This document shows, piece by piece, positions 1,465-55,451 of a DNA stretch of 64,000 bases. The notes under the pieces were generated by a model, which saw only the letters and a list, made by a program, of their open reading frames with translations, was not told where the DNA came from and ran no database searches. The DNA comes from a virus. A program made the translations under genes and the position numbers. The stretch covers positions 1 through 64,000 of IMG/VR virus record IMGVR_UViG_3300021960_007579. One strand, 5' to 3'. The first letter of the stretch is position 1. Each line of letters begins with the position of its first letter.

Positions 1465-2607
1465 ATGTTAAGAGAAAACGTTATAGTAAGTGGTTCGCTG
1501 GATGTAAGTGGACAGTTTGTAATTCCGAGAGGATCCAGAGCTCAGAGACCCACAAGTCCTGAGTTCGGTTCTTTATATCTCGAGGAATCTGTTAGTGGTA
1601 GTTTTGTCATTACATATACAGGATCATCTAACTATGACGATGGTTGGGAACCGGTAGGAACTCAAAGTACTGATAGAACCGCATTTAAGTATAGACAAAT
1701 ATTAAACTACTCCTATTTGGCGGGTGGTTATAAATCGGGATCTCCGTGGAAGAATGTCCACAAAGCAACTAATGCCACAGATCAAACAGTACATATAGGT
1801 GAATTATTAGATTACCCCGCAAACTATACCTCAGGGGCTTGTAGTAAAACCAAATTATTTATATGGTCATCGAACACGGACAACGCACATAAAGGTGCGA
1901 CAACAGTGTATTCCACATATACATCGGGTGTTGATATGGTTAATGAAACTGCATATGCCCACCAAACCAAATGGGACTTATTAAATGCGAGGGATGATTG
2001 CGGTACTTTGTTTAAAGAAACCGAATTCGCCTACATATTTGGTGGATCGGTTGCTGCGGTTGAAAAGTTTAACCTCACAAACGAAACAATGTATACTTCT
2101 TATTATCCAAGTGGTACCCAACCTTATACAACAACACAAACATCTATAACAAGTACGTTAGGGTGTAGTGGGTTTTCTGATGAAAATTATGGTTATGGAT
2201 ATGGTTCAGAGAGTGCTAATAAATGTCACTTTGCCACAGATACGTTTGAAACAAGAGGTTCTTCATGGGCATCAAGTGGACAACAAAAGGGTATTAGTTC
2301 TAAAGTTGGTAAGGGATATTGTGGTAACGAAGGAACATACCAAGGAGGTTACAATTTAAGAAGATGGGATGCATTTACTGAGACTAATCTTGGGAACGTA
2401 GCAAAACCAAGAGCAAATAGTGGTGAGGAAAATTTCGCATTGGGTCAGGACCACCAATACATGTTGGGGTGTTATGCCGATAGTTTACAAAATAATGATA
2501 GTTGGAAGTTCACATATGCCACGGATACGGGTATTGTAAATCCTGCGGGATTGGCACCTGGAGTTAATGGTGGAACATCATCGGGTCACTGTGGTTGGAG
2601 AAATTAG
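1465..2607 (+). CDS. Tail fibre/receptor-binding paralogue 1
   Basis: 380 aa. The N-terminus holds a short beta region and the motif 'PRGSRAQRPTSPEFGSLYLE', which recurs in the next two genes and probably serves for attachment. The rest is a C-terminal domain ending 'GTSSGHCGWRN'. Conserved blocks include 'YSYLAGGYKSGSPWKNVHK', 'GELLDYPANYTSGACSK' and 'EENFALGQDHQYMLG'. Together these suggest a repeated-blade, propeller-like receptor-binding fold, which is inference. It is one of three tandem paralogues separated by 10-13 bp. No enzymatic motif is visible. Confidence 0.75.
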   Translation: MLRENVIVSGSLDVSGQFVIPRGSRAQRPTSPEFGSLYLEESVSGSFVITYTGSSNYDDGWEPVGTQSTDRTAFKYRQILNYSYLAGGYKSGSPWKNVHKATNATDQTVHIGELLDYPANYTSGACSKTKLFIWSSNTDNAHKGATTVYSTYTSGVDMVNETAYAHQTKWDLLNARDDCGTLFKETEFAYIFGGSVAAVEKFNLTNETMYTSYYPSGTQPYTTTQTSITSTLGCSGFSDENYGYGYGSESANKCHFATDTFETRGSSWASSGQQKGISSKVGKGYCGNEGTYQGGYNLRRWDAFTETNLGNVAKPRANSGEENFALGQDHQYMLGCYADSLQNNDSWKFTYATDTGIVNPAGLAPGVNGGTSSGHCGWRN

Positions 2608-2620
2608 ATACTTATAAGAT

Positions 2621-4102
2621 ATGTTATTTGAGGATTTAGAAATTAGTGGATCATTAAGAGGTCAAGGGGTAACAAAACCACCAAGGGGTTCTCGTGCGGC
2701 AAGACCATCATCGCCGGAGACGGGTTCTTTATTTTTAGAACAAAATAGTCTTAATACTGGTTGGACTGATTATGGTGGAAACTCCGCAAACTACACAGTG
2801 ATAGATGCCGATAACATCATCATAAAAAATACATCAACAGGGTGGATAGGTTATTTTGTTGCCAATACCACAATGATTGCTAAACACGTTGTCCAATTTA
2901 CCTATAGTACATCCTCGGGCACATCATCTTTAGTTGTGGATAATGATGGTATTGACGATAATACATTTAATACAACATTATCGGTAACAACAACCCCACA
3001 GGTTTATAGAGGGGTCGTAACAACCACAACCACAGGACAGATAAGAATGTTCTTAAGACATAACGGTGGGGGAGGTGACATAACCATTAGTAATTTTAGG
3101 TTAGTTGAGGAGATTAATGAAGGTAAAAACTACTTAACGGTCTATACTGGTTTAAGTAACAACGATAGTGGTTGGGAAAGGATCGCCAACCAAAACAAGT
3201 TTGGTAACACGGCTTATAAGTATAGACATGTTATTGCTTATTCATATTTGGCGGGTGGTTATAAATCATCCTCACCGTGGAAGAACGTACATAAGACAGT
3301 AAATGCCACCGACCAAACATCACATGTTGGGGAGTTATTGGATTATCCTGCATCATATACTTCTGGTGCTTGTAGTAGGTTTATATTCTTTATGTGGTCT
3401 GTAAACACGGACAATGCGTGGAAATCCGCGGGGGAGATTCACGGAACATATACATCTGCAGTAAACATGTGGAATGATACAAACTACGCTCACCAAGCTA
3501 AATTTGATACAACAATTGCGAGAAGTGATTTAGGTACTATGTTTAAGGAACAGACCTACGCTTACTTGTTCAGTGGTGGGTCTGCTACCGTTGAAATATT
3601 TGATTTAACAAACGAGAGTTTAATCACATCATACACATTATCAACAATAAATGGTTCTGATGGTGGGTCCGCCTTCTCAGATGAGAATTATGGTTATGGT
3701 TGGACCGCAAGTGCGGGGGTAAAACTAAATTTTGCCACTGAAACATTTACATCGTCTCCTCATTGGGGTAACCACTCACAACAAAAAGGTATTAGTTCAA
3801 AATTGGGTAAAGGTTATGCCGGTAATGAAGGATCATATTCTGGTGGATATAACCTCAGAAGATGGAGTAACAATACAGATACTAACTTAGGTAATGTGGC
3901 GAAACCTGACGGTAACTGTGGTGAAGAGAATTTCACTTTGGGTCAGGATTGGCAGTACATGTTAGGTAACTATAATGGTTTACAAAATAATAATAGTTGG
4001 AAGTTTACATACGCAACTGATACGGGGGTGTTGAATCCTTCGGGATTGTCACCTGGTGTTAATCCAGGTACCTCATCGGGTCATTGTGGTTGGAGAGATT
4101 AA
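2621..4102 (+). CDS. Tail fibre/receptor-binding paralogue 2 with inserted domain
   Basis: 493 aa. It has the same N-terminal 'PPRGSRAARPSSPETGSLFL' block and the same C-terminal domain ('SGHCGWRD' end) as its neighbours. Between them, at about residues 45-165, sits an extra module of about 110 aa that is absent from the two flanking paralogues. That insert is beta-rich with many Thr/Asn residues and looks like a carbohydrate-binding jelly-roll ('FLRHNGGGGDITISNFRLVE'). A domain gained between attachment and tip regions would fit altered host-glycan recognition. The family is inferred from the paralogy. Confidence 0.75.
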   Translation: MLFEDLEISGSLRGQGVTKPPRGSRAARPSSPETGSLFLEQNSLNTGWTDYGGNSANYTVIDADNIIIKNTSTGWIGYFVANTTMIAKHVVQFTYSTSSGTSSLVVDNDGIDDNTFNTTLSVTTTPQVYRGVVTTTTTGQIRMFLRHNGGGGDITISNFRLVEEINEGKNYLTVYTGLSNNDSGWERIANQNKFGNTAYKYRHVIAYSYLAGGYKSSSPWKNVHKTVNATDQTSHVGELLDYPASYTSGACSRFIFFMWSVNTDNAWKSAGEIHGTYTSAVNMWNDTNYAHQAKFDTTIARSDLGTMFKEQTYAYLFSGGSATVEIFDLTNESLITSYTLSTINGSDGGSAFSDENYGYGWTASAGVKLNFATETFTSSPHWGNHSQQKGISSKLGKGYAGNEGSYSGGYNLRRWSNNTDTNLGNVAKPDGNCGEENFTLGQDWQYMLGNYNGLQNNNSWKFTYATDTGVLNPSGLSPGVNPGTSSGHCGWRD

Positions 4103-4112
4103 AATATAGATT

Positions 4113-5228
4113 ATGATATACGAAAACATGTCCGTTAGTGGAAAATTAAAGGTAGATAAGGTGACTGCAAGACCACCCAAAGGACCGAGATCCGCTCGAC
4201 CAACAAATCCGGTCTCAGGTTCCTTATTTTTAGAGGAATCTTCGGAGTATACAAATTATTTAATGGTTTACACGGGTGTAAGTAATATTGATGATGGTTG
4301 GGAAAGAGTGGCAGCACAGGATCGAGTGACTACTAATTTTAAATTTAGACAAATCATCAATTACTCTTACTTGGCGGGTGGATATAAGAGTTCATCCCCA
4401 TGGAAAAGTGTACATAAGGCAACCAACTCAACAGATCAAACAACATACGTTGGGGAGTTATTGGATTATCCTGCGTCGTATACTTCGGGGGCTTGTAGTA
4501 AGTCTATATTTTTCATGTGGTCAGTGAATACGAGTGGTGGATTTATGGGTCCTGGTAGTTTGGATGGTACCACAACTTCCGCAGTTAATATGATCACTGA
4601 CACAAATTATGCACATCAATCAAAATTCAATTTAGCTTATACTAGATCTGATTGTGGTACTATGTTTAAAGAAACTGAGTTCGCTTGGATCTTTGCGGGT
4701 AATAGAACAGAGATTGAGAAATTTAACCTAACTAATGAATCTTTATTCACCTCGTACGCAGCAACAACAATAGGTGGAGGTGATGGTGCATCCGCATTCT
4801 CAGATGAAAATAACGGATATGGTTGGTCTAATGGTGGAAACATTAAAATGAACTTCTCGACAGAGACAATTACATCAGGAACGGCATCTTGGGCCGCACA
4901 CGGACAACAAAAGGGAATTAGTTCTAAAGTATCCAAAGGTTATGCGGGTAATGAGGGTTCATATAATGGTGGGTATAACCTAAGAAGATGGGATTTAAAT
5001 ACTGACACAAATGTTGGTAACATCGCAAAAATAGAGGGGAATACTGGTGAGGAAAACTTCACAATGGGACAAGACCACCAATATATGTTAGGTAACTATA
5101 ATGGACTACAAAATAATAACTCGTGGAAACTATATTATACCACAGACACCGGTACTTTAAACCCCGCAGGATTAAGTCCCGCTGTTAACCCAGGTACTTC
5201 ATCAGGACATTGTGGATGGAGACAATAG
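4113..5228 (+). CDS. Tail fibre/receptor-binding paralogue 3
   Basis: 371 aa, the last of the three tandem fibre paralogues and collinear with paralogue 1. It keeps 'PPKGPRSARPTNPVSGSLFL' near the N-terminus, 'YSYLAGGYKSSSPWKSVHK', 'KGYAGNEGSYNGGYNLRRW' and a 'SGHCGWRQ' C-terminus. The central segments (residues about 145-260) diverge most from the siblings, as expected if they are exposed variable loops. It ends the operon and is followed by a strong terminator hairpin. Confidence 0.75.
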   Translation: MIYENMSVSGKLKVDKVTARPPKGPRSARPTNPVSGSLFLEESSEYTNYLMVYTGVSNIDDGWERVAAQDRVTTNFKFRQIINYSYLAGGYKSSSPWKSVHKATNSTDQTTYVGELLDYPASYTSGACSKSIFFMWSVNTSGGFMGPGSLDGTTTSAVNMITDTNYAHQSKFNLAYTRSDCGTMFKETEFAWIFAGNRTEIEKFNLTNESLFTSYAATTIGGGDGASAFSDENNGYGWSNGGNIKMNFSTETITSGTASWAAHGQQKGISSKVSKGYAGNEGSYNGGYNLRRWDLNTDTNVGNIAKIEGNTGEENFTMGQDHQYMLGNYNGLQNNNSWKLYYTTDTGTLNPAGLSPAVNPGTSSGHCGWRQ

Positions 5229-11545: not shown

Positions 11546-11992
11546 ATGACAACAAAATTGACCATCGATGAAATTTTACAATTAGATGCTGAGATTAATG
11601 GGTTCACAACCCCTCAGGGTCAGGTTGTGTATGAGGGTTTTAACAAACAACCTCTATCAATCCTCCTCAAGTACGAACTTTCTGAGTTCTCTAAGAGATT
11701 AAAAGAAGAAAGAGAAACTGTTGAGGGTTTGAGAAATGAATTAATTACAAAATACGGGGAAGCTCAAGAAGACGGATCAATTCAAATCAGTCCTACAATT
11801 GAGGAGAAGAAAGGTAAGAAAAGTGAAGCCGTTAAAAATCCTAAGTATGTTGAATTCATTGAGGAGTATGGTAAACTTCTAAATAAAGAAATTGAGTTGG
11901 ATCATCCCGAAATCAGTAAAGATGATTTAAAAGATGCGGGTAAAACAAAAGATCAATACAATATCCTGTTTAGATTGGTGACCAAGGGTTAA
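11546..11992 (+). CDS. Small uncharacterised protein, possibly tail-assembly related
   Basis: 148 aa, acidic and helical, with 'LLKYELSEFSKRLKEERETV' as a probable coiled coil. Not recognised with certainty. It ends convergently with the glycosyltransferase island, overlapping its last gene by 4 bp, and no terminator hairpin is visible between them. Confidence 0.65.
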   Translation: MTTKLTIDEILQLDAEINGFTTPQGQVVYEGFNKQPLSILLKYELSEFSKRLKEERETVEGLRNELITKYGEAQEDGSIQISPTIEEKKGKKSEAVKNPKYVEFIEEYGKLLNKEIELDHPEISKDDLKDAGKTKDQYNILFRLVTKG

Positions 11993-13083
11993 ACCTTATT
12001 ACGAATCTCAATTAACAAATTTCCGATTTGATATTCTCCTACGTCATAGTGGGGAATTGATAATCGGATTTTGTTTATTGTATATATGTCTTCATCAGTC
12101 ATTGGAGATGTTTCATAAATCATAACATCAACCACGTCAGTCAAGATAAACTTTGATCTTAAATCGTAATTAGTATTTACCTGTTCGTTGTTAATATACT
12201 CTTCAGGTATTCTCCCTAAATCTATTTTATTAAAGTAAGGTTCTACATTGTAGAGTTTACTATCACTCCTGGTAGTCAACCCCATGTTAAAAGTTTTGTA
12301 AGAGAATATCTCGTCCTCCCAATACTTCATCTCATTAAATACCGGAATCGGTATCCCCCATTTTCTTATGAAGTTTCTTATGTTTTTATGTTCGGATAAT
12401 CTACTTGCTTCGGGATTAGATCGACTAGTTTTAGAAACGAAGTGGTAGACCACCGCACATTCAGTGGTCTTTAGTTTATACCCTTTTAGTTTGGCTCTTA
12501 TTAAAAAGTCATCATCTTCACAGAAATAGGGTGAGAAACTAAACCCATCAAACAAACCAATATCAATAAAAGTATTTTTATATCCCGATAAAAAGAAAGA
12601 ACCCCCATTCACCAATGTTTTATTTGATTTGACTTTTTCCACATATTGATTGAACAAACCATAATTAAAGTCAAAGAAGTTATTACCAAAGTCCTGTATC
12701 ACTTTACCCGCCCTTTTATGTCCTTTAAAAATCGGAGGTTCAATAGTTGTGTAAGTGATTAAACTTTTCTCATCTATTAAGTCTGATAGATTCTCTAAGA
12801 AATTCTCACCAATAACCATATCGTTATGAATTAACACTAACTTATCAGTATCAACCAAATTGATTGCAGAATTATAGTTATCTGAAAATGTCAATCTATC
12901 ATCGTCATGTATATAGGAGAGGTAATCATCTGATAAAGACTCCAACCACTCTAAGGTACCATCGTTAGAACCTCCACTACTTATGACCATTGGGGCTTCG
13001 GGATATATTTCCCTAACCCTTTTATAACAATCTTTCGTATAACCTAAATTATTGTATACTGATAAAACTATTGATATATCCAT
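11989..13083 (-). CDS. GT2-family glycosyltransferase
   Basis: 364 aa. 'ISIVLSVYNNLGYTKDCYK' at the N-terminus and 'SSGGSNDGTLEWLESL' are the nucleotide-sugar binding motifs of GT-A fold enzymes. 'LVLIHNDMVIG' holds the acidic metal site (HND in place of DxD). 'FCEDDDFLIRAKLKGYKLKT' is the acceptor/ED motif seen in rhamnosyl- and polysaccharide transferases. It is the last gene of the minus-strand island and begins directly at the stop of the gene before it (shared base 13083). Confidence 0.85.
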   Translation of the reverse strand: MDISIVLSVYNNLGYTKDCYKRVREIYPEAPMVISSGGSNDGTLEWLESLSDDYLSYIHDDDRLTFSDNYNSAINLVDTDKLVLIHNDMVIGENFLENLSDLIDEKSLITYTTIEPPIFKGHKRAGKVIQDFGNNFFDFNYGLFNQYVEKVKSNKTLVNGGSFFLSGYKNTFIDIGLFDGFSFSPYFCEDDDFLIRAKLKGYKLKTTECAVVYHFVSKTSRSNPEASRLSEHKNIRNFIRKWGIPIPVFNEMKYWEDEIFSYKTFNMGLTTRSDSKLYNVEPYFNKIDLGRIPEEYINNEQVNTNYDLRSKFILTDVVDVMIYETSPMTDEDIYTINKIRLSIPHYDVGEYQIGNLLIEIRNKV

Positions 13084-13664
13084 TAATTGTGTACGTATAA
13101 TATTTTTTTAATTTTTATTCTTGGATACTTTGGGTTTTGTTCCAAGAAATCCTCAACAAATTTACCATCAGACGTGGCTTTCTTAGGGTCTAATCTCAAG
13201 TCACCAATTAATCGTGACTTCACCATAAAATTCCCAATATCTATCTTACTTATTACTGGTTTAGAATCAATATAGATATAATCTTCAGATAACCAATTAT
13301 GGACTAAATCACAATAAACAAATCCTACTTTGGGGTTTAATTCCACGGCTTTTATAAAATTATCAACAAATACAGGGACATAATAATTGTCGTCACCACT
13401 CATAACGACCCAATCCTCTTTTAGATTGTCTAAACCGTAATTACGGGCGGTGTGACCCCAATCATTATGAGGTCCCTCTAATACAGATACTCTGAGGTTT
13501 TCATATTGTTTGAAAATATCAATGATTTCCCAAAAACCCTCATACTCAGCATCCGCCACAACATGTACGGTAAAGTTAGGATTGTTCTGACAAAACAGAG
13601 AACTTAAACAAGTCCTTAATTCCTTCGGTCTGTTATAGGTCGGGATAATAAATTCAATCTTCAT
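13083..13664 (-). CDS. GT2-family glycosyltransferase, short
   Basis: 193 aa. 'KIEFIIPTYNRPKELRTCL' is the GT-A N-terminal motif and 'WVVMSGDDNYYVPVF' carries the DxD-like GDD site. It is shorter than usual (about 230-300 aa) and lacks the common C-terminal helices, so it may act as a minimal catalytic domain or partner of a neighbour. Gene junctions on both sides are 0-2 bp. Confidence 0.8.
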   Translation of the reverse strand: MKIEFIIPTYNRPKELRTCLSSLFCQNNPNFTVHVVADAEYEGFWEIIDIFKQYENLRVSVLEGPHNDWGHTARNYGLDNLKEDWVVMSGDDNYYVPVFVDNFIKAVELNPKVGFVYCDLVHNWLSEDYIYIDSKPVISKIDIGNFMVKSRLIGDLRLDPKKATSDGKFVEDFLEQNPKYPRIKIKKILYVHN

Positions 13665-13665
13665 A

Positions 13666-14214
13666 TTAAAATCTATAAATTACAAGTACATCGTCCGAAC
13701 GATTCTTTATTTTTCTATTATCTATGATCTCACAATTTGAATGCATCGAATTAAAATTATCAATAGATGTGTCAATGGATTCGATATCCTCGATGATATA
13801 TAAACCATTGGGATTCATCCTTTTTTTAAAAATATTAAAACTATTAATTTGGTGTTTTAGTTTGTGACTACCGTCGTCAATAATAACGTCAAATTTTAGA
13901 TTGGTGGGAAAACAGTCCAATATGTTGGGTTGAGTGGCGTCACCAATAAAAATAGTAAAACCCCCATCCTCTTTTAGACCTTTCATGAAATTACGATCAC
14001 TTATGTCAATCCCATATATTTGAGAGTCAGTGAAGTATTCAGACCACATCTTTAAAGATAGACCCGTATGTACCCCTATCTCTAATACTGATGAACCACC
14101 CCTATAATCCTCTAATAATTTTGAGTACTCGTTTATATATGTGTGGGCAGTCCCCTTGTCTCCATGACCGTCGGGAAATTGGTAGTTGTCGTATATCTCA
14201 TTTAATGTTTTCAT
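13666..14214 (-). CDS. SAM-dependent methyltransferase of sugar-cluster type
   Basis: 182 aa from ATG 14214; the 3-codon upstream extension would need TTG. 'SSVLEIGVHTGLSLKMW' is motif I, 'IYGIDISD' binds the ribose, and 'FDVIIDDGSHKLKHQI' matches the DDGSH block of Methyltransf_24/cephalosporin-hydroxylase-like enzymes that modify sugars. It overlaps the epimerase stop by 4 bp. The most natural role is O-methylation of a transferred sugar in the same island. Confidence 0.8.
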   Translation of the reverse strand: MKTLNEIYDNYQFPDGHGDKGTAHTYINEYSKLLEDYRGGSSVLEIGVHTGLSLKMWSEYFTDSQIYGIDISDRNFMKGLKEDGGFTIFIGDATQPNILDCFPTNLKFDVIIDDGSHKLKHQINSFNIFKKRMNPNGLYIIEDIESIDTSIDNFNSMHSNCEIIDNRKIKNRSDDVLVIYRF

Positions 14215-15209
14215 TTTTTCCAAAAACTATATATCCCTTTATCTAATTCATATGACGGCCACACAAACCTATCTCTCATGGGTTGTTCTTTCGCCCATTC
14301 CCACATAGTTGTTAGACCTTCCCTCATTTGAGTTCTATATTCAAATCCTAAAAGGTCAATTGATTTTTGGTAGGTGGGAATAGAATGTTTAACCTCGTGT
14401 CTCCCTTCTAAATAAATTACATCACCCTCACCTATAACATCTCTCAGAATATCCGCAGCACTATTGATTGAAACTTCTTCGATACCACCTAAATTGATGA
14501 TCTCTTTCGATGATTCTTCCCTTACCGCAGAATTCCATAATGGTTCTAATGAATCATCAATAAATGAGAATGCTCGAGTTTGATCACCATCACCGAAGAT
14601 CGTCATTGGTTGACCATTTAGGTGTTGGTACATCCAAATTCCTAAAACATTACGGTACTTATCCCAAATATTTTGTTTGATACCGTATACGTTATGGGGT
14701 CTAATTATACACCAATCCAAACCATGTTGTTCTCCCGCAATTTTAATATCCATTTCACAGGCATACTTAGCAACACCATAAGGATCTATTGGATTGGGAA
14801 TCTGACTCTCGTTAAACACCCCCCCATCACCATGTCCGTAAACGGCCAAAGTTGATGTGAACACTAGTCTCTTAACGTCATGTTTTATACATTCGTTAAC
14901 AATCCTTGCGGTTGCCTTTAAATTATTATCATAGTTATAGGATCTGATAAATGGGGATAGTCCCTCGGCGGCGTAGGCTGCGAAATGAAAAACATACTCA
15001 GGTTTGTGGTGTTGGAAGCAATTCTCGATGGGGTGGTTCACTAAGTCCATCTGCCAAAAGTTCACCTTATCATTCACATTTTCCCTATATCCACCACTCA
15101 GGTCATCGATACCGATAACTTTATACTCTGGTTTATTCTCTATAATCCAATCAGCTAATCTACTTCCTAATAGACCTGCAACACCAGTTATTAATATGGT
15201 TTTACTCAT
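14211..15209 (-). CDS. NAD-dependent sugar-nucleotide epimerase/dehydratase
   Basis: 332 aa, an extended short-chain dehydrogenase. 'TILITGVAGLLGSRLADWII' is the Rossmann GxxGxxG. 'AAYAAEG' follows at about residue 75, and catalytic Tyr-x3-Lys is in 'DPYGVAKYACEM', with 'FTSTLAVYG' upstream. The overall resemblance is to UDP-glucose 4-epimerase-like enzymes (GalE/WbpP group); the exact substrate cannot be assigned by eye. It would supply an activated sugar to the adjacent transferases. Confidence 0.85.
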   Translation of the reverse strand: MSKTILITGVAGLLGSRLADWIIENKPEYKVIGIDDLSGGYRENVNDKVNFWQMDLVNHPIENCFQHHKPEYVFHFAAYAAEGLSPFIRSYNYDNNLKATARIVNECIKHDVKRLVFTSTLAVYGHGDGGVFNESQIPNPIDPYGVAKYACEMDIKIAGEQHGLDWCIIRPHNVYGIKQNIWDKYRNVLGIWMYQHLNGQPMTIFGDGDQTRAFSFIDDSLEPLWNSAVREESSKEIINLGGIEEVSINSAADILRDVIGEGDVIYLEGRHEVKHSIPTYQKSIDLLGFEYRTQMREGLTTMWEWAKEQPMRDRFVWPSYELDKGIYSFWKK

Positions 15210-15834
15210 TAGTATTCATGAGGTTTTTATATAAATTATTTTGTCTTTCCTGACGATCAATATCTTTAGGGTGATAAAGACAGAATATCTCCTGATCGGG
15301 TAATCCCGCATAGGTGTTATAATTAGAAAGTCTCTCATGGACTTTACCCACCCACCTAATCTTATTGTTCTTTTTCCAAATCCTACTTTGATAGTCAGGG
15401 AAATTTACCCACCCCTTTGAATTAAGAACCCAATTCCACTTTTCAATATGTTCTTCAGTTATACCTTCTACAGTATTAATTCTCGGAACTAAATAGACTT
15501 CGGTTTTGGGATTTGTCTGTAGTATACCGGGTAAATTAAGGATTAGACTTTTATGTGGCATCTCATCAGCATCTATTTGAAATATATAATCACCGAGACA
15601 CTGTTCAGTCAAAAAGTTCTTCCACTCGGAGAAATCACCACTAAAATCTTTTTTAATTATATTGACATTAGTGGGTGTTTTATTTAAAAAGTTAATTACG
15701 TCTAAACTACCGTTCTTCTGATCAAATAAAACCACAATTTCATCATTAGGTCTTTTATTCTCTAAAAGAAATTGTATGAGACGTTGGATTTCAACAAACT
15801 CATTACATACTGTAATCGCGTAACTTATTTTCAT
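15202..15834 (-). CDS. GT2-family glycosyltransferase (WaaE/KdtX-like)
   Basis: 210 aa. 'KISYAITVCNEFVEIQRLI' and 'YIFQIDADEMPHKSLI' (DAD metal site) mark a GT-A enzyme. The late motif 'NKIRWVGKVHERLSNY' is like the W..x-VHE block of the beta-1,4-glucosyltransferase WaaE/KdtX group. It overlaps the epimerase start by 8 bp. Probably acts on an envelope glycan or on a virion protein. Confidence 0.8.
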   Translation of the reverse strand: MKISYAITVCNEFVEIQRLIQFLLENKRPNDEIVVLFDQKNGSLDVINFLNKTPTNVNIIKKDFSGDFSEWKNFLTEQCLGDYIFQIDADEMPHKSLILNLPGILQTNPKTEVYLVPRINTVEGITEEHIEKWNWVLNSKGWVNFPDYQSRIWKKNNKIRWVGKVHERLSNYNTYAGLPDQEIFCLYHPKDIDRQERQNNLYKNLMNTNE

Positions 15835-15835
15835 T

Positions 15836-17095
15836 TTACTTTTCTATTTTAGTTAGTTCCGGTAAGACTAGATTAGTTTTAGTCGGTTTCGCAACTATTA
15901 ATGGTTCTAAAATTTTTTTAAACTTAGATGTGGTAGACTCTAAGGAAAAATTTTTCTTATTCGTTTTTCTTAGTTCCTCTGATTTGCCCCTAAAATCATC
16001 ATATTTTTCGTATACGATCTTAAGGACTTCTACTGCCTCAGAATAGTTGGCGGTAAACCATTTAGATTCTTTTAGGATAAAATCGTCACTAGCACTTTCA
16101 TGTACATTTGTTAATTTACCACCTACCATAATGGCCTTGTCCATTGGTAGAAAGTCTTTATGACCCGACCAATTAGAGGCAATTACGGGTTTCCCCGTCA
16201 TGGTAAACTCTAAAAGAGGTCTACCAAATCCCTCACCCTTTGTTAGGGTGATCATTGATTTTATTTTAGGGTGATTGTAGAAAGAATTCATCTCTTCGTC
16301 TGTTAATTGACCAAACATCAAATAAACCGACGGAGGTGTAGGGTATTGGTTAGTAACCCTTTGTATCTTCTTCCTGAGTTCTTCTCTTTGTTTTACTGAG
16401 AATGTAGCACTGGATGTTTTTAAAATTAGTGCGGGTCTATCATCACCCTCTTTAAATGACTCACAAAAACATTTAATCAACATAGAAACATCTTTTCTAT
16501 CCTGACCTATATCACCTCTCAACCAATGACCCACAAATAGATACGCGAAATCTTCTTTGATGTCCAATTTAAATTTAGAATCCTCTTTATTATAAATCGA
16601 TACATCAACACCCTCATGAAGTATTTCAATGGGTACCTCTATTTTATGTTGTTTGACTAGCTTACCCGTGACCTTATCGGTTTCATTGTAAACTGTCTGT
16701 AAGAGGACATCTCTAGAGAAAACCGAGGTAGTAATCACCTTATCCATCCTATTTATACCGTCAACCCACGATTTAGGTGCTGCGGTTGTTTCAATACCCG
16801 CGGTGATTCCAATATTATACTTACCCATTCTTTTAAATTCGTTAGGTACGGTAACTTGTATGTAGATATCAGGTGTTTCTCTTAAGGTGGTGACAATATT
16901 AGATTCTATCCATGAATGGAATAAATTGTTTTTAGGATCCAATGCCGACATGGGGGTGTTTCCCCAATTAGAACTATCGATTTTTATATCGAATAGATCC
17001 ATGTCATATAAAGATTTTAGTAGGTCTCTAGAATGAGATCCATAACCACTTAATGTTTTAACGGGTCCTCTAAATAAAATTGATGGCTTACTCAT
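15836..17095 (-). CDS. GT4-family (GT-B) glycosyltransferase
   Basis: 419 aa. The N-terminal 'RGPVKTLSGYGSHSRDLL' is the glycine-rich acceptor loop of GT-B enzymes. The C-terminal nucleotide-sugar site is 'TKGEGFGRPLLEFTMTGKPV' (E-x7-E), followed by 'IASNWSGHKDFL'. Length is normal for the family. It overlaps the next upstream gene by 4 bp, so it is translationally coupled with the other GT4. Confidence 0.85.
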   Translation of the reverse strand: MSKPSILFRGPVKTLSGYGSHSRDLLKSLYDMDLFDIKIDSSNWGNTPMSALDPKNNLFHSWIESNIVTTLRETPDIYIQVTVPNEFKRMGKYNIGITAGIETTAAPKSWVDGINRMDKVITTSVFSRDVLLQTVYNETDKVTGKLVKQHKIEVPIEILHEGVDVSIYNKEDSKFKLDIKEDFAYLFVGHWLRGDIGQDRKDVSMLIKCFCESFKEGDDRPALILKTSSATFSVKQREELRKKIQRVTNQYPTPPSVYLMFGQLTDEEMNSFYNHPKIKSMITLTKGEGFGRPLLEFTMTGKPVIASNWSGHKDFLPMDKAIMVGGKLTNVHESASDDFILKESKWFTANYSEAVEVLKIVYEKYDDFRGKSEELRKTNKKNFSLESTTSKFKKILEPLIVAKPTKTNLVLPELTKIEK

Positions 17096-18471
17096 GATAT
17101 TTTATATAATTCGTATGGTTTTTTCTTCTTATATGTCTTTAGAGTACGATTAATACCTTCTTTAAGACTTTCACACATAACTTTGCTCGAGAAGTGATCG
17201 ATCATGTACTCCCTACCAATTAATCCTCTTCTTTTTCTTTCTTCACGACCCAATTCATACATCTCTTTAATTGCGTCAACCACGTCATAATGGTTGATCC
17301 TATCATCAAAGATGTAAGGGGTGTTAGGTGAACCGTTCAACGTTATAGATGATGGCCAAATAGGACTAACCCATTCACCCCATTTTAAATTTTTAGGTAA
17401 ATCTCTATTGTTGTGTAATGAACCTAATTTAATGTAGTCGTCTGCGCTTAGGTATGAACCTTTAACCTTAAACCCACATTGATCCTGTAGTCCTCCCGTT
17501 ACGTTTACAATAATTGGTGTACCCGCCATTAGAGACTCGGCAGTGGTTAACCCAAAACCCTCATTATTAGCGATGTTGATTGTACAATCAACCATGTTAT
17601 AGATTCTATTGAGTTTATTCTGATCAAACTTGTCGTTCGTAAACTTTACATCATAATCAGGACAAAGCTCATTCACCACCGCAACCAAATCAGTGCCGTT
17701 ACTATCCAAAGAGGCTGTATGCATTACCAAAAGACACTTAGATGATTTCTCTTTAGGTAATGTGTCACAGAACATTTTATAACTATAGATAACGTCTGAA
17801 GGTTGTTTTCTCTTAATGTTTCGATTATTAAAGAATAGAATGAAATCGTATTCTTTATCCCCATGTATAAATTTCTTCATCTCCTCATCCGTTTCGGTAA
17901 TAGGTTTGAAAGACTCGGGGTTAATCCCATGAGGGACATAAGATATTTGCCAATCTTTGAGGGGTTGGTGGGTTAACTCTCTTTTACTTTTACCAACCCT
18001 ATGTACAATTCCATACGTTTGTTTCGATATACAACCTAACCAGTCACATGACTCATAATAATCTCTATTGTAATGTGGGTCAGGTAAATCATCCCAAATG
18101 TGATAGAATAGAATAGGTACCTGTTGTCTTATCTCATGTTCATTATCGTACAACCACTGCCAGTAATGTGGATCAGTAAAATGTAATATTGCATCAGGTT
18201 TTTCCTCGGCTATTAATTCTCTTAATCTGAATATATCCCCATAACCGTTATGTGGGTAGATCTTCACGTTGGCGTCTGAAACACCAGTCCTCTCCCTAAC
18301 ATCATTATTAAGATCGACAATCTTTCCGTACTCGGGGTGTTTGATGGCAGCACCTAACTGAACCCAATCATAGGTGTCGACAGTACCAACCACTAATTCT
18401 TTGGACATGGTCGCGACTCCTGAGGTCATCCTTAAGTCATCGGACAACAATAGAATTTTCTTTTTAGGCAT
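17092..18471 (-). CDS. GT4-family (GT-B) glycosyltransferase
   Basis: 459 aa. 'LLLSDDLRMTSGVATMSKEL' forms the acceptor-side loop. 'DFILFFNNRNIKRKQPSDVI' and 'NIANNEGFGLTTAESLMAGT' (E-x7-E) form the donor site. It is the first enzyme gene of the minus-strand island, starting 3 bp after the small regulator-like gene. Two different GT-B enzymes together suggest an oligosaccharide of at least five additions from this island. Confidence 0.85.
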   Translation of the reverse strand: MPKKKILLLSDDLRMTSGVATMSKELVVGTVDTYDWVQLGAAIKHPEYGKIVDLNNDVRERTGVSDANVKIYPHNGYGDIFRLRELIAEEKPDAILHFTDPHYWQWLYDNEHEIRQQVPILFYHIWDDLPDPHYNRDYYESCDWLGCISKQTYGIVHRVGKSKRELTHQPLKDWQISYVPHGINPESFKPITETDEEMKKFIHGDKEYDFILFFNNRNIKRKQPSDVIYSYKMFCDTLPKEKSSKCLLVMHTASLDSNGTDLVAVVNELCPDYDVKFTNDKFDQNKLNRIYNMVDCTINIANNEGFGLTTAESLMAGTPIIVNVTGGLQDQCGFKVKGSYLSADDYIKLGSLHNNRDLPKNLKWGEWVSPIWPSSITLNGSPNTPYIFDDRINHYDVVDAIKEMYELGREERKRRGLIGREYMIDHFSSKVMCESLKEGINRTLKTYKKKKPYELYKIS

Positions 18472-30420: not shown

Positions 30421-31083
30421 ATGATAACACTATTCGATACTTATGAACAAATGTCAGAGTACGTCGCATCAATAGTTGCGGAGGAAATAACAAACAACCC
30501 CAACCTACGTTTAGGTTTACCAACCGGATCGACACCGATCGGGATGTACAAAAACCTAATCCAATTCGACTTGGATTGGTCCAATGTAAAAACTTTCAAC
30601 TTAGATGAGTATGAGGGGATTAGTCATTCACATCCTGAATCGTATCATATGTTTATGAATAAGAATCTATTCCTACATGTGAATTTAAATAAAGAGAACA
30701 TACACTTCCCCGATGATCAGTACGATAAAATTATTGAGGGGTTAGGTGGATTGGACCTAACCATTTTAGGTATTGGTCATAATGGTCACATTGCATTTAA
30801 TGAACCAGGTTCTTCGGTTACCTCTAGAACTAGAAAAGTTAAATTAACTGAAGAGACTATTAGTGCCAACAGTAGATTCTTCGATTCCATAGACGAAGTC
30901 CCAAAGAGGGCGTTTACTATGGGATTAAAGACTATTAGAGAATCAAAGAAAATAATTGTAATTGCCAACGGTCAAAGTAAGTGGGACATTTTAAATGAGT
31001 GTTTCTATGGTGAGTTGAGTAAGGATAGACCCGCAAGTATTTTACAGGTACACCCAAACATTGAGGTCTTTTATGCCGGTTAA
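30421..31083 (+). CDS. nagB: Glucosamine-6-phosphate deaminase NagB
   Basis: 220 aa. It converts glucosamine-6-P to fructose-6-P plus ammonia. 'GLPTGSTPIGMYKNL', 'FNLDEYEG' (catalytic Asp), 'LGIGHNGHIAFNEPG' (catalytic His) and 'FTMGLKTIRESKKIIVIANG' are all present. It is slightly shorter than bacterial NagB (about 266 aa), so C-terminal allosteric parts are missing. It overlaps the PIG-L gene by 11 bp; together they could consume GlcNAc-type sugars. Confidence 0.93.
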   Translation: MITLFDTYEQMSEYVASIVAEEITNNPNLRLGLPTGSTPIGMYKNLIQFDLDWSNVKTFNLDEYEGISHSHPESYHMFMNKNLFLHVNLNKENIHFPDDQYDKIIEGLGGLDLTILGIGHNGHIAFNEPGSSVTSRTRKVKLTEETISANSRFFDSIDEVPKRAFTMGLKTIRESKKIIVIANGQSKWDILNECFYGELSKDRPASILQVHPNIEVFYAG

Positions 31084-31606
31084 TAAACTCATGATTGTTG
31101 CCCACCCAGACGATGAAACCCTATTCGGGGGTGGTGAGCTGTTGAAGTGTAAGGGTGAATATAAGGTTGTTTGTTTGGACTACGGAAACCACTTAGTTAG
31201 GCACAAAGAATTTATTTGTGCTATGGAACTTTTAGGTGTTGAGAAATGGGAGCATTGGGATGGGGAACCCTATAAATCATCAGTCTCCTATAATGAATCG
31301 ATACTCATACCTAGATTGGAAAGGGTATTAAAAGAAAGGGAATGGGAAAAGGTGGTGACTCACAATCAAGGAGGTGAATACGGACATTACAGACACATTG
31401 GAACACATAACGTTCTTGTTCGGTTGTGTCCCGAAAAACTATGGGTCTTCGACACCTGTATTGATTACCCCTTAACTGAGGAGATAAAAATAAAAAAAGG
31501 TGAAATACTTAAAGACTGTTACCCAACACAGAAACAAGTCCTTAGATGGTTCAAATGGGATTGTGAAAGAATAATCAAATATGATGTGAATCAAGTCCAC
31601 ATTTGA
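31073..31606 (+). CDS. PIG-L/LmbE-family deacetylase
   Basis: 177 aa from ATG 31073. 'MIVAHPDDETLFGGGELL' holds the zinc AHPDDE motif, and 'VVTHNQGGEYGHYRHIG' supplies the third His. Members deacetylate GlcNAc-linked substrates. It overlaps nagB by 11 bp, consistent with an amino-sugar module. Length is a little short compared with bacterial members (about 220 aa). Confidence 0.88.
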   Translation: MPVNKLMIVAHPDDETLFGGGELLKCKGEYKVVCLDYGNHLVRHKEFICAMELLGVEKWEHWDGEPYKSSVSYNESILIPRLERVLKEREWEKVVTHNQGGEYGHYRHIGTHNVLVRLCPEKLWVFDTCIDYPLTEEIKIKKGEILKDCYPTQKQVLRWFKWDCERIIKYDVNQVHI

Positions 31607-51171: not shown

Positions 51172-51419
51172 AGTTACACAACTTAAACACCCACGAAGAA
51201 ACACCATCCAAACTAAGACACCTCTCACATAACCCAACAGGAGAACTAATCAAACTCTTCACCGAAAAAATGGGTGTTATAAAGAGACATAGAAGGATTA
51301 ATGAAAAAATTATTGATGGTCAATGGTCATCCAATGGACACAAAACATTCTACCTCAAGATGTTAGAAAATTTCAAAAAAATTTTTAATATTTTTTTTAT
51401 TTCGTGCTTGACAAACTAA
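51168..51419 (+). CDS. Small basic protein preceding the ncRNA
   Basis: 83 aa, basic ('MGVIKRHRRINEKIIDGQWS'). Its last codons overlap the ncRNA promoter (TTGACA at 51408). Not recognised. Confidence 0.5.
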   Translation: MKLHNLNTHEETPSKLRHLSHNPTGELIKLFTEKMGVIKRHRRINEKIIDGQWSSNGHKTFYLKMLENFKKIFNIFFISCLTN

Positions 51420-51437
51420 AAATACTTCATATATTTG
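51408..51437 (+). promoter_or_regulatory. Promoter of the giant ncRNA
   Basis: TTGACA at 51408-51413 and TATATTTG at 51430-51437, with 19 bp between TTG and TATATTTG. One of the best matches in the window to the Bacteroidetes consensus. Transcription should begin near 51443. Confidence 0.85.
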
Positions 51438-51815
51438 TACAAGAATTGAGAAATCAATCAATCGTTCTTTGATTTAAAGATATTGGCCGCCTATGGTCAC
51501 TAAATAAACCACGAAAGTGGGATAAAGTGATGTCCTCATTTACAGAGGGGATGTTGCGGCTTCGGTAACGGAGCTCGAGTAGGCAAGCGGGATATCATTT
51601 CATCTTTAGTATCGAGGGTAACACTGTAGAGAAAGTGATGTAATGACCGGGTGATGTGGGTCATTCGGTTGAGGTGGGAACACCAATAAGAATAACTCGT
51701 AGGATGTTACAGGAAACATGACTCCAATCATGTGATTGTGTATTCCAATATGATGGGAATCTTAAAACCGAAAGGTAAGATGGTGTACAGGTGGTGCTGT
51801 TATCATCCTTTAATT

Positions 51816-51835
51816 AACCCTACCAAGGGTTTTTT
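51816..51835 (+). other. Terminator-like hairpin inside the ncRNA
   Basis: AACCC-TACCAA-GGGTT followed by T6. It could end transcription early and leave a 5' product of about 390 nt, or be an internal stem of the full RNA. Confidence 0.5.
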
Positions 51836-52365
51836 AATGAAGGGGTCCAAAAGTATGGAGGTCGGGAGGTCTCAGAGAGTAGTTTAGTATCGTGTCGTTC
51901 AAAAGATGACATGGCTGGTGATGGGCCGCTACTTTCACAATCCACAAGTAAAACTTTATTTGGATATGCAACTTCCAAAGTTAATTAAACAGACAAAGGA
52001 AAAGTGTCCATCAGTCATTCGGAGAAAGGTGACTACTTAGTCGTGAGGGGTTCACGGCCATAAAGGTTCCCAAGACCAATATGATTTTTGAGAAAGTTCT
52101 CTAAACCCGCAAGGTCCAATCAGGGAGGCATCCTTGAAGAGCAACGAGTAACGAAAGAGTATCCAATGACTCAAGGAGTGGTAGGTCTAACTTACCGTCA
52201 CTGAATCGATACTGTTCAAAAGACAGTGGATAAGAAGGGAAACAATAATCCTTCAAAAGATGGTTCACTAAAACGTATAATCTCAGCGTTTTTATTTTTA
52301 TCGCACACAAGATCACCTAAAGATAATGAGAGGTCTTTGACGTAACACCCGAAGACTAATCACCA

Positions 52366-52398
52366 AACCCTCGTCCGTAACACCGCGAGGGTTTTTTT
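52366..52398 (+). terminator. Terminator of the giant ncRNA
   Basis: CCCTCG (52368-52373) and CGAGGG (52386-52391) with T7 after it. Confidence 0.9.
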
Positions 52399-52442
52399 AT
52401 GCCCAAATTTTACTTTTTAAAAACTTTCATGTATCTTTTTGC

Positions 52443-52742
52443 ATGATTAATCCTATTACATTATATCAATGGGCAAAAAGGAGGTTTGGAAAAAGTAAAT
52501 GTTTAAAGGTTGTTTACCACAATAACAAACAGAGTTATTATGGTGAATATGATTTTGAGAAAAGAGTGATTAGGTTAAACCTAAGGTACATTCAAAGTTA
52601 TGGAACACTTTACAGAACAATGGCCCATGAGTGGACTCACGCACAGCAAAGTGAGTATAGGTATTATAAACTATTAAAAAAATACGGATATAAAAACCAT
52701 CCCTACGAGATTATGGCACGTAATAGGGAAAAAAAAGTTTGA
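52443..52742 (+). CDS. SprT-like zinc metallopeptidase
   Basis: 99 aa. H62-E63-x-x-H66 in 'TMAHEWTHAQQSEYRYYKLL', with 'PYEIMARN' as the third-ligand Glu context. 'YDFEKRVIRLNLRYIQSYG' is the beta hairpin that precedes the active helix in SprT-like folds. It has no Zn-ribbon tail and is a minimal version of the family. Confidence 0.75.
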   Translation: MINPITLYQWAKRRFGKSKCLKVVYHNNKQSYYGEYDFEKRVIRLNLRYIQSYGTLYRTMAHEWTHAQQSEYRYYKLLKKYGYKNHPYEIMARNREKKV

Positions 52743-54158: not shown

Positions 54159-55451
54159 ATGAAAAAAACCCTAAAAGAGGAGTTGGAGAGAATCCACACA
54201 TTAACCTATGGTAAAACCATGGGATCTACTCTTATTGAGGGTATCTTCTCTGAAGAAAATAAAGACGAAAAGAAGGCCGATACAGTACCACCAGATGTCC
54301 AAGAGTTTTTTGATACTTTAGAAGGGGCAATAAGTAGTGGTGGGTTATCACAACAAAAATCTGGATCTTATGATTTTGTAAAGGGTGTTGAGTCTATGCA
54401 AATAGGTCTCACACTTTTAGGATATGAATTACCTCGTCACGGTGTTGACGGTTTATTTGGTCCTGAGACTGCCGCCGCGGTTAGTAAGTTTAATGAAGAT
54501 AATAAAGTTTTATCTGAAGCCGTTGAGTATGATGCCACAGGATTAATTGGTAAACCTGGTCAGGGAACACATAATGCGTCTGATTGGCAAAGTAGAAATG
54601 CGTGGGATGTTAAGATGGATGTGGGTTCATCTGTTAAATCAATCACTAATGGTACAGTATCCAAAGTATACAGTGCGGGTAGTGGTATGGTTAGAAGGGG
54701 TAATAAGAAGATATATGGTGATCAAATCACCGTCAAAAGTTCAGATGGTCCCGATGTGTTCTATACCCACGTAGAGTCAAGTGTCAGTAAAGGACAAAGT
54801 GTTAGTATAGGTGATGAGATTGGTAAGATTATGACATTACCAGGTATGCCGTCACACGTTCACATTGGATTATCTAGTGGTAATCTCTCTGATTATATTT
54901 CTAATTTACCAAATGCAACAGGTGGAGGAGATTCCGAGGTTATGTCCAAAGCATCACCCAATATGTTGAGAAAATTAGTGGACCAATTAAAGTCAAAAGA
55001 TCTTAAATCTGAAGACATTAAAAAGTATACTAATATGGGTATTGATACTGAAGGTTTAGTCGATAAGAATTTCTATGAGAAATTATTGGAAAATCTCGGA
55101 GCACCTGTAAGTGAGGAAAACTTAAAATATCTATACGCTTGGAGACAGGCAGAGGGTAAGGCGGGTGACTTTAACCCATTTAATACAACACAACCAATGG
55201 ACGGTGCCACGAAATTTAATAAGGTTGGTGTAAGAAACTATGTATCGTTGGAACAGGGTATGGTTGCCACAATTAAAACACTTAAGAATGGCTATTATGA
55301 TTGTATCGTAGAAGGTCTACGAAACGACATAGGGGCTGATAAGATCGCACAATGTCCTTCTCTTAAAACTTGGGGTACAGGTGGGTTAGTGGCCAAGGTA
55401 TTAAATAGTTACAATAGAGGGGCCTCCCCCAAAGTCTCATCCCTTGCGTAA
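54159..55451 (+). CDS. Multidomain peptidoglycan hydrolase, M23-type with N-terminal LIE tag
   Basis: 430 aa. N-terminal 'LKEELERIHTLTYGKTMGST' then 'LIEG' fits the shared leader. Residues about 65-115 are a peptidoglycan-binding type 1 domain ('GVESMQIGLTLLGYELPRHG', 'FGPETAAAVSKF'). Residues 125-250 form an M23 (LytM) metallopeptidase: H138, D150 ('NAWDVKMD'), H233 and H235 ('SHVHIG'). The C-terminal 100 residues ('YLYAWRQAEGKAGDFNPFNT', 'GVRNYVSLEQGMVATIKTLK') resemble a lysozyme-like family. It is likely a virion-borne lysin or endolysin, with no signal peptide. Confidence 0.85.
   Translation: MKKTLKEELERIHTLTYGKTMGSTLIEGIFSEENKDEKKADTVPPDVQEFFDTLEGAISSGGLSQQKSGSYDFVKGVESMQIGLTLLGYELPRHGVDGLFGPETAAAVSKFNEDNKVLSEAVEYDATGLIGKPGQGTHNASDWQSRNAWDVKMDVGSSVKSITNGTVSKVYSAGSGMVRRGNKKIYGDQITVKSSDGPDVFYTHVESSVSKGQSVSIGDEIGKIMTLPGMPSHVHIGLSSGNLSDYISNLPNATGGGDSEVMSKASPNMLRKLVDQLKSKDLKSEDIKKYTNMGIDTEGLVDKNFYEKLLENLGAPVSEENLKYLYAWRQAEGKAGDFNPFNTTQPMDGATKFNKVGVRNYVSLEQGMVATIKTLKNGYYDCIVEGLRNDIGADKIAQCPSLKTWGTGGLVAKVLNSYNRGASPKVSSLA

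Follow-up and report, generated by a model that had tools for sequence, protein, structure and literature searches.

GOLLD and ROOL are giant phage-associated RNAs that form cages, and OLE is a further large and ornate RNA that multimerises and is mainly found in extremophilic bacteria (PMC12286853). The GOLLD structure solved by cryo-EM is a hollow RNA cage of 14 copies, and for the GOLLD RNA env-38 a 5' region (nucleotides 1-420), a 3' region (421-833) and a disordered linker (497-538) were delimited in the same work (PMC12286853). Among the contacts described there, bridge B7 is intermolecular and connects L20 with J13/15, and bridge B8 is a self-kissing L21a loop, for which a GC-to-CG switch was described (PMC12286853).

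The DNA analyzed here is a stretch of 64,000 nucleotides (the window), which covers nearly all of a linear virus record of 64,772 bases. On its plus strand, the locus 51408-52399 consists of a promoter, about 957 nt of putative RNA and a terminator, and the initial annotation had taken it for a GOLLD- or ROOL-like RNA or a new class. The scan with all 4227 Rfam families returned a single match in the window, GOLLD (RF02032) at 51875-52289 (+), which comprises positions 1-416 of the 416 in the model and, with 316.3 bits (E = 1e-89), exceeds the gathering score of 150. The ROOL and OLE covariance models had no match in the window at the Rfam gathering threshold, which separates the locus from these two RNAs. 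We are highly confident that the locus, which lies on viral DNA, is a GOLLD member with a two-domain fold. The first part of the initial proposal thus stands and its second part does not, since the GOLLD of this presumed Bacteroidota phage is, judged from its sequence, a further member of a known RNA family and not a new class. It shares with described GOLLDs the complete 3' domain, a 5' domain of matching size, the position of the linker, a pseudoknot, the positions of bridges B7 and B8 and the location on a phage. GOLLDs are encoded by phages or prophages and often lie near tRNA genes; the present GOLLD differs in that no tRNA occurs beside or inside it in the window, and in its leader, which combines a Bacteroidota-type promoter with a hairpin and a boxA-like element. 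Its core measures 803 nt, within the 765-842 nt of the homologue cores.

The Rfam model represents the 3' domain only. The 5' domain, at 51485-51874 (+) and with about 20 helices, lies outside of it and was traced by profile searches and covariation. By BLAST against phage records, the 5' part has counterparts with 71-72% identity in two phages (634,780 and 642,428 bases), and Acinetobacter phages matched the 3' domain only. Two degenerate patterns of the 5' domain each hit at least about 120 viral contigs of up to 385 kb, and the pattern TCACTNAAANNGTNTAATCTCAGC had no match in viral_contigs. Among the loci collected, nhmmer detected 199 with the 5' profile, 195 with the 3' profile and 180 with both, and the resulting homologue set comprises 156 full-length sequences, with 76 non-redundant ones. 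In nearly all loci with both domains detected, these are spaced by about 0-15 nt. The present type of 5' domain was not found by nhmmer in the GOLLD loci of Lactobacillales or of Acinetobacter phages, in which respect they differ from the locus described here. When 84,980 genomes of bacteria and archaea were searched with a 5' pattern, five chance matches came up, none of which is a GOLLD by profile; hence, the host chromosomes in this set showed no GOLLD of the present type, a result that fits with non-integrating phages.

Covariation in the 5' domain is overwhelming. The 40 strongest covarying column pairs, ranked by an APC-corrected G test, all belong to the RNAalifold consensus structure, as do 57 of the top 60. 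A second alignment (MAFFT, 39 sequences) with 109 predicted pairs was compared with 500 shuffles and with slid structures. Canonical cells amounted to 96.6% (76.7% in shuffles), about 88-89 of the 109 pairs showed changes on both sides, and such changes totalled 911, compared to 250 in shuffles and 104-139 in slid structures. The covariation score was 0.639 (shuffles 0.239, slid structures 0.096-0.116), and none of the 500 shuffles reached the observed canonical fraction, number of both-sided changes or covariation score. The 5' domain, though not modelled by Rfam, is a real structured domain.

Within this domain, the GAAA-capped stem noticed initially is the conserved hairpin CCAC-GAAA-GTGG of helix 2 (51509-51520, +), in which all cells are paired and three of the four pairs are changed on both sides. 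A second conserved GAAA-capped hairpin, ACC-GAAA-GGT in helix 16 (51767-51776, +), possibly corresponds to L11a of the solved structure; this name, like B7, B8 and L21a below, rests on position and the published text rather than on an alignment to env-38. The features compared between the two 5' regions, length (420 versus about 420-433 nt) and GAAA loops, agree. Helix 19 (51816-51831, +) is kept in homologues, with its UACCA loop conserved and its stem variable; the scanning tool marked it as terminator-like, and we rejected it as internal terminator. A 21-nt hairpin, GAGTGGTNNGNCTAACNNACC, resembles one GOLLD stem-loop and is also present in unrelated viral contigs that lack GOLLD (L007, L008, L010, L012, L016, L018, L019, L023, L027 and L028). 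No Rfam family was found at this hairpin in the six contigs scanned, and some matches of its pattern belong to this unrelated hairpin.

Contacts of the cage could be located in the 3' domain. When the env-38 positions are transferred, the variable linker, a part of the solved GOLLD that is disordered within the cage, falls at about 51938-51996 (+), here without a tRNA, and the L21a dinucleotide (52109-52110) is no more than a base away from its expected place. Directly after the linker, GG at 51998-51999 (+) pairs with CC of the L20 loop at 52070-52071, the B7 position; one of these two column pairs is canonical in all 76 homologues and the other in 75, with swaps among CG, GC and AU. The arm GUGAC (52029-52033, +) forms a pseudoknot with GUCAC (52197-52201), and each of its five pairs is canonical in 75-76 of 76 homologues with several pair types. 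Pseudoknot and L20-junction pairs are among the strongest covarying pairs of the 3' domain outside the nested structure. The L21a loop carries GC at 52109-52110 (+), the self-complementary dinucleotide of B8; of 76 homologues, 55 have the loop sequence CGCAA and 15 have GTCGA, which equals the published GC-to-CG switch (PMC12286853). The positions of bridges B7 and B8 are retained here, as assigned by position. Because contacts at known bridge positions covary, the structure is best read as a self-assembling RNA cage, on the strength of homology to the solved 14-mer. The RNA would fold into its 5' and 3' domains, and copies would associate via the conserved kissing and loop contacts to a hollow cage with the variable linker inside; such assembly in the present phage, and any cargo, are extrapolated from that homology.

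The locus is best explained as a single-gene transcription unit for the GOLLD RNA. Its promoter (51408-51437, +) is of the Bacteroidota type TTG-N19-TAnnTTTG. Both boxes marked initially, TTGACA at 51408-51413 and TATATTTG at 51430-51437, are present, with a spacing that is Bacteroidota-like rather than that of a classical sigma-70 box. The plus strand of the window contains nine TTG-N19-TAnnTTTG sites (shuffle mean 2.1, maximum 5), and TTG-N18-20-TAnnTTTG occurs upstream of GOLLD in 49 of 75 homologues against a background of 5.8%. The intrinsic terminator AACCCTCG...CGAGGGTT with its T-run (52366-52398, +) is also plain, with a stem formed by 52366-52373 and 52386-52393 followed by T's to 52398; it exceeds the loop limit of the scanning tool and was called from the sequence itself. 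Host RNA polymerase would start near 51441-51443, giving a transcript of about 957 nt that would end at this terminator.

In bacterial rRNA leaders, boxA is an established antitermination element. A boxA-like element, GTTCTTTGA (51464-51472, +), lies downstream of the GOLLD promoter, as in an rRNA-type leader, and is the only such site on the plus strand of the window. Its core GTTCTTT was found between promoter and 5' domain at 73 of 75 loci compared to 4.5% of background windows, it is absent from two leaders including that of L004, and the consensus is [AC]GTTCTTT[GA]AA. The E. coli-type spelling [GT]CTCTTTAA occurs in none of the 75 leaders. One locus, L031, has a different 5' domain, yet boxA is present. 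Between promoter and boxA, in a boxB-like position, the leader forms the hairpin ATTGA-GAAA-TCAAT (51445-51458, +); among the 33 homologues whose promoter-boxA spacer is short, 29 have a stem of at least 4 bp, the stem sequence varying with the pairing kept. In genomes of the phylum to which a "Bacteroidetes bacterium" MAG belongs, the GTTCTTT core precedes the 16S gene in nine of 15 readable leaders, with close variants in others, and in sister phages tmRNA and tRNA-Met genes follow the promoter-boxA unit at distances of 6 nt and 8-15 nt, respectively. Order of elements (promoter, boxB-like hairpin, boxA) and GTTCTTT core are thus alike in GOLLD and rRNA operon leaders, the difference being that the GOLLD leader drives a non-ribosomal phage RNA. 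The literature search found no earlier report of an rRNA-style leader on a GOLLD, and none pairing boxA with GOLLD. Since boxA serves antitermination in rRNA leaders, we consider it rather probable, from motif and position, that the GOLLD boxA does so too. The hairpin-boxA leader would most likely recruit the host rRNA antitermination factors (NusB-S10 and partners), permitting synthesis of a long untranslated RNA without Rho termination, as for rRNA.

Other readings of the locus have to be weighed. It could be a non-coding spacer structured by chance or a decayed protein gene, and no protein function was found there. As the initial annotation had stated, a credible reading frame is missing; no stop-free run in the RNA core exceeds 63 codons, and in the homologues the longest such runs are scattered over different strands and positions without a conserved frame. 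The fold of the single sequence beats that of shuffles (MFE z = -3.9), a value that alone is insufficient to exclude the spacer, because AT-rich spacers often fold; together with the massive covariation across homologues it nevertheless bears out the claim of structure beyond chance. The Rfam match and a covariation that no shuffle reached refute the spacer or decayed gene, whose probability we regard as negligible. It is also very improbable that the RNA represents a new GOLLD-like class related in its 3' half only, with the 5' half being a separate gene or regulatory RNA that ends at 51816-51831. The terminator-like call at this site, the restriction of the Rfam model to the 3' half and the lack of this 5' domain at the Lactobacillales and Acinetobacter-phage GOLLDs would agree with such a division. 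However, helix 19 is a conserved structural hairpin whose relatives have no comparable T-run, the two domains keep their close spacing in nearly all loci that have both, and the published GOLLD 5' region, with 420 nt and less conserved, has the size found here (PMC12286853).

For the leader, it might be asked whether GTTCTTT is part of the GOLLD fold or a signal for RNase processing instead of an antiterminator. The element sits within the transcript, and UCUUU in the window is able to pair with AAAGA directly downstream. Against this stand its variable distances of 17 to 135 nt from the promoter and about 20 to 120 nt from the 5' domain, its occurrence ahead of tmRNA, tRNA-Met and 16S genes as well, and the result that boxA was not found within 750 nt upstream of the Lactobacillales and Acinetobacter-phage GOLLDs. 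A role in folding or processing is hence unlikely, and we keep to antitermination as the favoured function of the leader element.

Regarding the host, the TAnnTTTG promoter element is discussed in papers on Bacteroidetes, and Shine-Dalgarno sequences are lacking in members of this group (PMC6847099). Only four of the 52 ORFs in the window have a Shine-Dalgarno-like sequence. The TAnnTTTG-type promoters, this low usage and boxA suggest that the phage infects Bacteroidota; NCBIfam protein families gave no host clue in the window, for example no T9SS sorting domain. The phage is tailed and probably a jumbo phage, a size taken from its relatives, the record itself being a fragment of 64.8 kb. Close to the start of the window, the products of two genes are similar to proteins of cyanophage myoviruses, which fits with a T4-like phage and says nothing firm on the host. 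Three tandem paralogous fibre-like proteins at 1465-5228 share YSYLAGGYKS...GTSSGHCGWR and are related to a cyanophage myovirus protein. Two regions hold sugar metabolism genes: at 30421-31603, the gene for NagB, a glucosamine-6-phosphate deaminase scoring above the NCBIfam cut-off, precedes a deacetylase-like gene, and 11989-18471 contains a run of glycosyltransferase- and epimerase-like genes. Downstream of GOLLD, the ORF 52443-52742 encodes a small putative metallopeptidase, below Pfam cut-offs, and 54159-55451 a Peptidase_M23 protein with endolysin-like PHROG matches.

The tRNA and tmRNA search detected neither in the window. Among 76 homologues, no tRNA lies inside GOLLD and 43 have one within 600 nt, most often tRNA-Met. 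In the carrier phages, tmRNA (RF00023) is often close to GOLLD (L013, L045, L063, L075, L079, L094, L105 and L135, also L137 and L166), in several cases with promoter and boxA directly upstream. A further RNA of about 130 nt, conserved but unclassified (GGTTATAGAAACAGTCTAGGTCCG...GAGGAAAGTGACTACGG...TATAATAACC), is preceded by boxA and located a few hundred bases upstream of GOLLD (L135:5055-5190 (+); also L065, L079, L081, L105, L112, L115, L118, L128 and L142). It matched no Rfam family, loose threshold included, and its GAGGAAAGT is reminiscent of an RNase P RNA motif. Unannotated GOLLDs were also noticed within the tRNA arrays of the Acinetobacter phages Herod and vB_AciJM_313 (L005 and L006), and in L005 a group I intron adjoins the terminase gene.

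With regard to function, a published pull-down with ribosomes is cited in PMC12286853. Because of this pull-down, the tRNA and tmRNA company and the rRNA-style leader, a translation-linked container or scaffold (tRNA- or ribosome-related) during infection may be offered as a tentative first guess for the role of GOLLD. We lean more clearly towards the view that the GOLLDs of Bacteroidota jumbo phages are rRNA-mimicking units, in which the leader would capture host antitermination, and that the leader shared with tmRNA and tRNA genes would tie the cage to phage stable-RNA synthesis and translation control. The more than 150 full-length GOLLDs and the deep alignment of the 5' domain could serve to build a covariance model of the entire RNA and to test the cage contacts. 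Moreover, the rRNA-style leader offers a handle on GOLLD expression and suggests a link to translation.
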